Notes under the pieces: generated by a model
Seen by the model: the letters and a program-made list of their open reading frames with translations, nothing else
What the model was told of the DNA's origin: nothing
The model's database searches: none
Shown: in pieces, positions 24,201 through 26,908 of the stretch
Layout: each line of letters starts with the position of its first letter
Numbering within the stretch: position 1 is the stretch's first letter
Origin: Leptospirillum sp.
GTDB lineage: Bacteria > Nitrospirota > Leptospirillia > Leptospirillales > Leptospirillaceae
Direction: 5' to 3'
DNA: 64,000 nt
Assembly (NCBI GenBank): GCA_027315205.1
Contig: DAHUYM010000006.1
Location: 62,001-126,000 of the forward strand
Made by a program: the position numbers and the translations under genes

Positions 24201-25169
24201 ATGATCCTCGTTACCGGCGGAGCCGGCTATATCGGTTCCCACATGGCCAGGAGCCTCGTCCAGAACGGGTTCGATGCGGTTATCCTCGACAACCTCTCCC
24301 ACGGATCCAAGGAAATCGCGAACCAGACCGGAGCTCACCTGGTCGTCGGAGACATCCGGGATCCCAGAGCCCTCACGTCTCTCTTTTCCCATTACCCGAT
24401 CGAAGCCGTCATCCACTTCGCTGCGGCCATCGAAGTTGGGGAATCCGTCCTCGATCCCCTGAAGTATTGGGACAATAACCTGACCGGCACGTTACGGCTG
24501 CTCGAAACCATGCGGGCGTTCGGCATACGGAACCTCATCTTTTCTTCGACGGCGGCGGTTTACGCGCCGAAGAAAAGGGGGCTTCTCGTTGAGGAAAACC
24601 CGCTGCAACCTGACAATCCGTACGGAGACACGAAACTATCTGCGGAAAGGCTCATCGAAGCGGCATCCAAGGGATTCGGGCTAACGGCGATCACGTTCCG
24701 CTATTTCAACGCGGCCGCAATGGAACCGTCATTCGGCCTCATCTCCCATGCCATTCCCCGGAGCCACCTGATTCCGGCTGTCATGGACGCCATCACCGGA
24801 CGCATACTCGAGCTGAAAGTGTTCGGAAACGACTACGCGACACCGGACGGAACGGGAATCCGCGATTACATCCATGTCATGGACCTTGTGGATGCCCATC
24901 TGATCGGGCTGAAACGATTAATTAAGGGGAATCTTTCCGGGGTTTTCAACCTGGGGACGGGAAAAGGACATTCCGTTTTGGATGTGATCGGTATGGCCGA
25001 GAAGGTCACAGGGAAAAAGGTTCCGTGGCGGATCGTTGAACGCAGGCCCGGAGACGTTCCCATGCTTGTCGCCGGTAGTCGCAAAGCCAGGGAGACCCTT
25101 CCATGGATCCCGGTAAGGTCTTCTCTGGAGAGGATTCTCCGGGACACGGCAACCGGCTGGGGGCTTTGA
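24201..25169 (+). CDS. galE: UDP-glucose 4-epimerase
   Basis: A 322-residue short-chain dehydrogenase-type epimerase interconverting UDP-glucose and UDP-galactose for surface polysaccharides. Motifs are NAD-binding ILVTGGAGYIGSH, VVGDIRD, VIHFAA, SSTAAVY, the catalytic NPYGDTK (Tyr-x3-Lys), YFNAA, and a late RPGDVPML. The frame runs back to 24066, but ATG 24201 has AAAAGGAG and begins exactly at the family N-terminus. A TATAAT at 24158-24163 may be its -10 element, with a poor -35. No other sugar genes are adjacent. Confidence 0.93.
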   Translation: MILVTGGAGYIGSHMARSLVQNGFDAVILDNLSHGSKEIANQTGAHLVVGDIRDPRALTSLFSHYPIEAVIHFAAAIEVGESVLDPLKYWDNNLTGTLRLLETMRAFGIRNLIFSSTAAVYAPKKRGLLVEENPLQPDNPYGDTKLSAERLIEAASKGFGLTAITFRYFNAAAMEPSFGLISHAIPRSHLIPAVMDAITGRILELKVFGNDYATPDGTGIRDYIHVMDLVDAHLIGLKRLIKGNLSGVFNLGTGKGHSVLDVIGMAEKVTGKKVPWRIVERRPGDVPMLVAGSRKARETLPWIPVRSSLERILRDTATGWGL

Positions 25170-25227
25170 CATCTATGTTTTCAGAGATTTCAATAATGTA
25201 CTCGATTGAATGACTGCCAGAAGTCTA

Positions 25228-25244
25228 TCCCACATCCTGTGGGA
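25228..25244. terminator. Short hairpin between galE and the AT-rich island
   Basis: TCCCACA and TGTGGGA form a perfect 7-bp stem with a 3-nt loop, 59 nt after galE and 25 nt from the stop of the convergent island operon. There is no T-tract in either direction. It marks the left edge of the low-GC segment. Confidence 0.35.
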
Positions 25245-25268
25245 GGGAAGAGCTTTACGTGAGGATGC

Positions 25269-25685
25269 CTAATCTCTTGTGATTCTTAAAGCATCTTCTT
25301 TTGATTCAGATAAAAGAACTAACTCTCCAGCATAAATCTTTAAATTAAATCCCAGTATGCCAAGATCAAGTGCCAACCCTTCAGTTACCATGGTTAAGTT
25401 AAACATTGTCAGTTCTTGATCTACCTTAATCACTCCTGAAATTAACGGTTGGGATTGTTTATTTAAAACATAATTGAATTCAAATCTATCCGGTCGAACT
25501 TCTTCTTTCCCTAGCGAAAATCTTAAAAATAATGATAGGCGAATTGGGATTGGCCACTTTATATTTGTTGATTTCTCAGGCGGGATTTTAAACATGATTC
25601 GATCATTATAAAGACCCATCAGGGAGATCTTGTTGTGTTGTTCAAAGCGGATATCATCGCAGAAAATTTGATCAATGATTTTCAT
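25269..25685 (-). CDS. DUF6941-like protein of the AT-rich island
   Basis: 138 residues, no signal peptide or membrane segment. The N-terminus (CDDIRFEQHNKISLMGLYND) resembles the DUF6941 family as I recall it, whose function is unknown. The rest looks like a compact beta-rich fold (alternating strands such as RLSLFLRFSLG and FNLTMVTEGLALDLG). Its ATG overlaps the stop of the zinc-ribbon gene by 4 nt, so it is the third gene of a coupled operon. Base composition is far more AT-rich than the chromosome on either side, a sign of recent acquisition. Confidence 0.6.
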   Translation of the reverse strand: MKIIDQIFCDDIRFEQHNKISLMGLYNDRIMFKIPPEKSTNIKWPIPIRLSLFLRFSLGKEEVRPDRFEFNYVLNKQSQPLISGVIKVDQELTMFNLTMVTEGLALDLGILGFNLKIYAGELVLLSESKEDALRITRD

Positions 25686-26302
25686 GTTCCAACCAATTCA
25701 TTATTGGATCGAGAATTAATGAGTTGATCTGTCGATGATGAAGTTTTTGCGATTTGGATATGCGCAATATATGCATTTGGGTCGTTTTCCAAAACGATGT
25801 CAATATTAGGTCCTTGCTTTGATAAAGCTTCGCCTAATGCTTTCGCTGCTTCTCGTATGATTACTTGTCTTGCAAACATCGGATCAAATTTGTGTTCCGC
25901 GACTTCGGTGATCCAAGGATAGGTTGTAACTGTCCTGAGAAGCGCCATAGAAGCGGCAGAAAAGTCACCGGATTTCCAACGGGTCGATGTTCTAATCGGC
26001 AATTCAAAAACTCTTTCAAAATTAACTAATGTCATATGACCCTTTAAAGAATCAATCATATTCCTTACAGCAGATTCTTGAGCGCTTTTTTCTGCTAATG
26101 TGAAATTAGCATCCGTTTCTGCCGTAAAATCACCTTTTTCTTTACACATGTTGCATTCATAGATTACTTCGTCAAACTGAAATCGAGGGCCAAGCGTAAG
26201 AAGTGCGGATTGAGTTTTCACTTCCCTCTTTAAATCAGTTGATCCACATGCCGGACAACTAACAATTTTTTCAATCATATTATCTCGCTTTTTATCTTTC
26301 AT
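25682..26302 (-). CDS. Zinc-ribbon plus HTH protein, divergent MqsA-like antitoxin candidate
   Basis: About 206 residues. Two CxxC pairs (C16/C19 in CPAC and C50/C53 in CNMC) make an N-terminal zinc ribbon. After a spacer, residues about 85-125 (FERVFELPIRTSTRWKSGDF, then a SMALLRTV segment) have the spacing of an Xre-type helix-turn-helix. This zinc-ribbon/HTH order is that of MqsA-type antitoxins. A C-terminal extension of some 70 residues is extra. ATG 26302 has GGAG and overlaps the upstream gene stop (ATGA); an upstream ATG at 26320 is less likely. The similarity is by eye and distant. Confidence 0.55.
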   Translation of the reverse strand: MKDKKRDNMIEKIVSCPACGSTDLKREVKTQSALLTLGPRFQFDEVIYECNMCKEKGDFTAETDANFTLAEKSAQESAVRNMIDSLKGHMTLVNFERVFELPIRTSTRWKSGDFSAASMALLRTVTTYPWITEVAEHKFDPMFARQVIIREAAKALGEALSKQGPNIDIVLENDPNAYIAHIQIAKTSSSTDQLINSRSNNELVGT

Positions 26303-26712
26303 GAGGTCTCCGAATTCCATTTTTGTTGATTTATGAGTCTTCCAAGCCCTCTAAGCGGTAAATTTCTCGGATCAGGGTCCCTGTTTCTTTTCAAGGATTT
26401 AATAATCCACTTGCTAGTTTTTGGCTGGTAAAGGAACGCAATATACCCATAAGACATTCCGACAAAAAAACCATATGAATCAACCATGATCTTGATTGAT
26501 GGATCCAAATTATTTTCCCATATCTTGTTGTTGATAAAATGAGGACTTTCAAGACCATCCGCTGCAATAAAATCCAGAATTCCGGCTTGCGTGGTGAAAT
26601 TGAAATCACTTTTAGCCGTTTCCATCGCTCCTTTAGAGATAAAAACTTTTCCTATCCCTTCTGAACAAGCGCACAAGAATATTTCAAGGCGATAAGCAGG
26701 TAGGGGATGCAC
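26299..26712 (-). CDS. Unknown protein, possible MqsR-like toxin
   Basis: 137 residues starting at GTG 26712 after AAGGA. It is the first gene of the island operon and overlaps the zinc-ribbon/HTH gene by 4 nt. Part of it (SDFNFTTQAGILDFIAADGL, then a strand region YGYIAFLYQPKTSKWIIKSL) has the order of elements seen in MqsR-type RNase toxins, and the toxin-first gene order matches mqsRA. It is longer than typical MqsR (about 98 residues) and I see no decisive catalytic motif. It should be treated as unknown, with a toxin role as a hypothesis. Confidence 0.5.
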   Translation of the reverse strand: MHPLPAYRLEIFLCACSEGIGKVFISKGAMETAKSDFNFTTQAGILDFIAADGLESPHFINNKIWENNLDPSIKIMVDSYGFFVGMSYGYIAFLYQPKTSKWIIKSLKRNRDPDPRNLPLRGLGRLINQQKWNSETS

Positions 26713-26766
26713 GAAAATTTCCTTGAAGACAAGAATGATATTGGAGGTTTCGTTACAATGAAATGT

Positions 26767-26795
26767 ATCATATCATAATTTTGATTTTTATGCAA
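26767..26795 (-). promoter_or_regulatory. Sigma70-like promoter of the AT-rich island operon
   Basis: On the minus strand TTGCAT (26790-26795) and TATGAT (26767-26772) are separated by exactly 17 nt, about 55 nt upstream of the GTG at 26712. A second ATCATA copy overlaps the -10. The island therefore seems to have its own promoter rather than reading through from phoR. Confidence 0.55.
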
Positions 26796-26908
26796 TGAAT
26801 AGAGGCATAAAAACTTAAAAACGCGGACTTACTCTATTTCAATGCGAGTATCGATTTCCCGCAATAATTTTCCAAAATCCAAGAAAACCATTCGAAAGAC
26901 TACCGTCA

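Follow-up and report, generated by a model that had tools for sequence, protein, structure and literature searches.

The window (the whole stretch of Leptospirillum sp. DNA that was analysed, 64,000 nucleotides) carries an insert of 1.74 kb between the convergent genes galE and phoR, with stops at 25169 and 26909, respectively. The insert holds three co-directional ORFs on the minus strand, and its features are as follows.

25170–26908, no strand: AT-rich insert between galE and phoR, at a site that is empty in three relatives
26713–26908, minus strand: intergenic region upstream of the operon, read from the sequence
26299–26712, minus strand: ORF1 (137 aa), probable toxin with an inferred, distant MqsR/RelE-type (BECR) fold
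25682–26302, minus strand: ORF2 (206 aa), MqsA-type antitoxin/repressor with N-terminal zinc ribbon, HTH and C-terminal extension
25682–25891, minus strand: C-terminal extension of ORF2, residues 138–206 (69 aa and stop), lacking in two-gene MqsA proteins; candidate ORF3-dependent region
25269–25685, minus strand: ORF3 (138 aa), DUF6941-superfamily β-sandwich, third component

A sequence-only reading of this DNA had described the galE/phoR interval as an AT-rich island, and its composition bears this out: the insert has 37.3% GC, compared with 57.6% for the whole window, and is the only one among window stretches of equal length to fall below 45%. galE and phoR are also convergent in three relatives (G001, G002 and G006), where the gap between them is only tens of bases; since the two genes nearly abut in these genomes, the cassette was inserted at a site that is empty there. 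A foreign, horizontally acquired origin of the three genes forms part of the overall interpretation given below.

At both junctions the genes overlap by 4 nt, as the same reading had noted; the shared letters are ATGA. ORF1 starts with a GTG behind AAGGA, and the length of ORF2 is counted from the ATG overlapping the ORF1 stop codon, with an alternative upstream ATG possible at 26320. The proposal that the operon has its own promoter was not confirmed: a promoter consensus scan found 4 sites, compared with 4.7 expected from shuffles, with no minus-strand site ahead of ORF1. An imperfect inverted repeat, ATGAAATG-TAT-CATATCAT, lies at 26758–26776 and is a putative operator, though the repeat may be due to chance. 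Just 3′ of ORF3 a hairpin (TCCCACA-GGA-TGTGGGA on the minus strand, 25228–25244), which has no T run, marks a possible end of transcription.

The three genes occur together twice more, so that the lack of recurrence which would have spoken against a unit was not observed. In the Leptospirillum-family genome G002 all three genes follow one another as they do here, but at a different, unrelated place, and each protein is 48–57% identical to its counterpart; the ORF1 frame of G002 is broken by one base (L006, around base 269), which may be real or perhaps an assembly error. A more distant trio is present on two metagenomic contigs of the viral collection (L051 and L052), which represent one and the same locus; identities at L051 are 28% for ORF1, 28% for ORF2 and 31% for ORF3. 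Neither ORF1 nor ORF2 turned up in roughly 390 other sampled genomes of the phylum or in the collections of plasmids and phages; most scans of plasmids, phages and viral contigs for these two proteins were empty, and three-member alignments recovered just the two known contigs. The exact trio is known from few copies. ORF2 matches on Nostoc and Calothrix plasmids were rejected as chance, the frames concerned being an annotated nucleotidyltransferase/hypothetical of another operon.

Sequence comparison supports the assignment of ORF2 as a divergent MqsA-type antitoxin. A TIGR03830 alignment spans nearly all of the protein, albeit with 15.5 bits where the cut-off is 61.8, and neither ORF2 nor ORF1 passes any curated family cut-off. 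Profile–profile comparison (hhalign) of ORF2 with 14 MqsA proteins of the same phylum gave E=6e-10 over 121 columns and a score of 66, where shuffled columns reach at most 23; with the cysteines masked, or from the HTH part alone, the match has E=9e-4. The zinc-ribbon cysteines C16, C19, C50 and C53 are common to all three ORF2 homologues, as is the HTH, in the MqsA order of zinc ribbon then HTH, in agreement with the domain content originally proposed.

ORF1 is probably a distant toxin of the MqsR/RelE type, a view that leans on its predicted structure. The predicted order of elements is H-E-H-H-E-E-E-E, which we take to be that of MqsR. The best of five AlphaFold models has a pLDDT of 80; we treat it as moderate evidence because the other models score 46–75 and the alignment contains only three homologues. 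Profile–profile comparison with MqsR gave E=0.026, a value equalled by 2 of 150 shuffles and so near chance level, and a match of about equal strength (E=0.013) links MqsR to the RelE/ParE-like toxins of the sister cassettes described below. Foldseek returned nothing significant for ORF1, with RelE and HigB2 structures at E=0.1–0.5 beside NTF2-like folds. No Pfam family matched ORF1 up to E=10, and the MqsR toxin family (PF15723, MqsR_toxin) has no match in the window's own genome. The MqsR likeness proposed for ORF1 is therefore weakly supported, with a fitting predicted topology but weak similarity in sequence.

ORF3 itself has no Pfam match, and so lies below the cut-off of PF22091 (DUF6941); its match to phrog_31406 has E=0.007. 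Its homology to DUF6941 runs through intermediates, as related proteins (L010, L027 and L028, the last from a Pseudomonas phage phi2 cassette with a RelE-type pair) pass the PF22091 cut-off, the motif FCDDIRFE is common to ORF3 and its relatives in alignment, and the conserved start CDDxRxE...K.S.MG.Y is found in the DUF6941 relatives and in ORF3 alike; the resemblance suggested from the sequence is thus supported by way of these relatives. The predicted model is a confident all-β sandwich (pLDDT 88). UNC119 and PDE6D, the closest folds, align poorly (TM about 0.5, rmsd 6.5–8 Å), and we have not taken these matches as evidence for lipid binding. We ruled out that ORF3 is a SecB, given its all-β model and a comparison of DUF6941 with nine SecB proteins that gave E=0.17 over 8 columns. 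A defence library gave no match, and profile searches of the PDB gave nothing significant.

Searches with ORF3 and its relatives, which took no account of gene neighbourhood, yielded 31 DUF6941 loci from viral, plasmid and phage collections. In 30 of them the DUF6941 gene directly follows an antitoxin-like HTH gene, which overlaps it or ends at most 33 nt before it; with near-copies removed, 24 distinct cassettes remain. All but one of the 21 upstream HTH proteins scanned match HTH_3, and in nearly all of these loci the HTH gene is itself preceded by a gene of about 135–176 aa. The products of this first gene are of three types: a ParE/Gp49-like type with sub-threshold Pfam matches, a longer type that profile comparison connects to the first (E=2e-4 to 9e-4), and the ORF1 type of the window. 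The cassettes reside in prophages (many copies), on plasmids and on chromosomes; two Nitrospirota chromosomes (L136 and L140) bear cassettes arranged in this way, in which the third gene overlaps the preceding one by 4 nt. On plasmids of Rhodoferax and Burkholderia (L025 and L027), DUF6941 cassettes have genes for a TIR-domain protein and a restriction endonuclease as neighbours.

PF22091 matches occur in 174 of the 396 Nitrospirota genomes sampled, mostly as a single copy. Unlike ORF3, most of these Nitrospirota members are solo chromosomal genes (L058–L087 and L108–L135), usually one per genome and without toxin–antitoxin neighbours: an upstream antitoxin-like HTH gene was found at 0 of 56 located solo loci, compared with 12 of 12 controls, three of which (L047, L136 and L140) had been left out of model building. 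When 86 proteins are placed in one tree, the division between toxin–antitoxin-linked (TA-linked) and solo copies requires one change, a value reached in none of 500 shuffles. Support is 97 for a set of 30 rows (29 TA-linked rows and L053) and 64 for the exact split, in a tree of few columns and many long branches whose groups come mostly from different collections. The Nitrospirota TA-linked copies group with the phage copies, apart from the solo copies of their own phylum. Within the TA-linked group the toxin types are mixed, and the third gene has therefore swapped partners.

The overall layout of the cassette is of a known kind. In toxin–antitoxin–chaperone (TAC) systems, SecB-like chaperones are paired with HigBA, MqsRA and HicAB, and dependence on the chaperone resides in an extension of the antitoxin (PMC5105189). 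Both mqsRAC and CmdTAC guard E. coli against phages (PMC9519451); in CmdTAC a capsid protein draws the chaperone off and the antitoxin is then degraded (PMC11618068), and a response of HigBAC to the lambda tail protein is reported in PMC11980606. Phage defence is thus on record for TAC systems built on MqsRA or on HigBA. Three-gene mqsRA loci are therefore already described, as mqsRA-SecB (PMC5105189, PMC9519451). Such operons are common in Nitrospirota, where 9 of 16 MqsR loci continue with MqsA and then a SecB-like gene (L093, L094, L096–L099, L101, L104 and L105), contrary to the earlier view that a third partner lies outside known mqsRA loci. MqsR is very divergent at L104 and L105, and in a genome of the same family as the window (L091, G009:C24) the MqsR gene has an internal stop codon.

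With MqsRA-SecB and other TAC systems the window cassette shares the order toxin–antitoxin–third gene (the toxin gene being first, as in MqsRA, if ORF1 is taken as the toxin), an MqsA-type antitoxin with a C-terminal extension, a third gene common to unrelated toxin–antitoxin families, and a mobile distribution. MqsA proteins of the phylum have 135–141 aa in two-gene loci and 171–253 aa where SecB is present; ORF2, with 206 aa, continues for 69 residues after the point where two-gene MqsA stops, an extension past the two-gene antitoxin of the kind termed ChAD in TAC systems. Protein length had been held against an mqsRA identity; ORF2 is indeed longer, but extra length is what would be expected of an antitoxin dependent on a third component, and by analogy the tail is a candidate region for dependence on ORF3. 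An apparent likeness between antitoxin tails and degradation tags was set aside, since the codons concerned overlap the start of the next gene. In contrast to TAC systems, the third protein of the window is a DUF6941 β-sandwich instead of a SecB-like protein, the sequences of ORF1 and ORF2 have drifted too far to be recognised by the family models of MqsR and MqsA (PF15723; PF15731, TIGR03830), and dependence on the third protein is a proposal. The novelty thus lies in DUF6941 occupying the third-gene place. Our searches of the open-access literature found no mention of DUF6941, and those on tripartite systems did not return the present one, although with this coverage neither result is proof.

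The cassette is very probably a toxin–antitoxin module of some sort. More specifically, we favour, with a probability of roughly 0.55, a horizontally acquired tripartite toxin–antitoxin operon that would work, by analogy, in the manner of a TAC system with DUF6941 replacing SecB. The suggestion of an undescribed tripartite toxin–antitoxin or defence unit survives in its operon structure, its recurrence and the third place of DUF6941, but not in the contrast with mqsRA, since three-gene mqsRA loci are known. The operon, its insertion and recurrence, the MqsA type of ORF2, the predicted fold class of ORF3 and the pairing of its DUF6941 branch with changing toxin–antitoxin pairs rest on the results above, whereas toxicity, dependence on ORF3, trigger and defence are proposed. 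In the mechanism we envisage, ORF1 would be a translation-inhibiting endoribonuclease of the MqsR/RelE type, and ORF2 would be both antitoxin and autorepressor, its C-terminal tail imposing dependence on ORF3. By analogy with TAC chaperones, ORF3 would bind and stabilise ORF2, or the ORF1–ORF2 complex, through this tail; if ORF3 were then displaced, most likely by a freshly synthesised protein of a phage, ORF2 would be exposed to proteolysis, and the ORF1 so freed would bring about abortive infection.

Other divisions of labour among the three proteins are conceivable. paaR-paaA-parE provides a model in which repressor, antitoxin and toxin are separate, and ORF2 might correspondingly be the repressor only, with ORF3 as the neutralising antitoxin; very different HTH proteins indeed precede one branch of DUF6941, with the third gene constant. 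We consider this unlikely, as one narrow β-sandwich family would have to block three types of toxin, and as MqsA-type proteins are direct antitoxins themselves, through a zinc-ribbon domain that binds the toxin and that ORF2 retains whole. A toxin-free regulatory operon, in which ORF2 is a transcription factor and ORF1 and ORF3 have ligand-binding or accessory roles, would account for the lack of a significant toxin match to ORF1 and for the NTF2-like folds among its best Foldseek matches; it is similarly improbable, because the match of ORF2 to MqsA, the toxin-first order and the ParE/Gp49-like partners in sister cassettes all indicate toxin–antitoxin pairs.

The occurrence of many copies in prophages, where accessory genes cluster, could also mean that an ordinary two-gene toxin–antitoxin pair is accompanied by a passenger third gene serving the mobile element. 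This we regard as the least probable of the alternatives: the genes keep their order and stay closely spaced or overlapping across phages, plasmids, chromosomes and three toxin types, and the TA-linked DUF6941 proteins form one side of the tree. The recurrence of DUF6941 after at least three kinds of toxin–antitoxin pair suggests an unrecognised relative of the toxin–antitoxin–chaperone systems. A broader and more tentative proposal, which we hold to be somewhat less probable than the tripartite operon itself, is that the TA-linked branch supplies the third component to a SecB-independent tripartite class that has gone unrecognised, its β-sandwich sensing phage proteins and licensing the antitoxin. 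The class would span at least three kinds of toxin and antitoxin (ParE/Gp49-like, a second RelE-superfamily-like kind and MqsR-like) in prophages, plasmids and chromosomes.

Among phage sensors the TAC systems form an important class, which until now has been tied to SecB. If the tripartite reading is correct, a second, unrelated fold would occupy the operon place of SecB, and control of an antitoxin by a third component would have evolved more than once; DUF6941, with its matches in 174 of 396 sampled Nitrospirota genomes, would gain a first testable function. The genome of the window contains a second, weaker DUF6941-like match (L137, G000:C37:156219-156401), away from the cassette.
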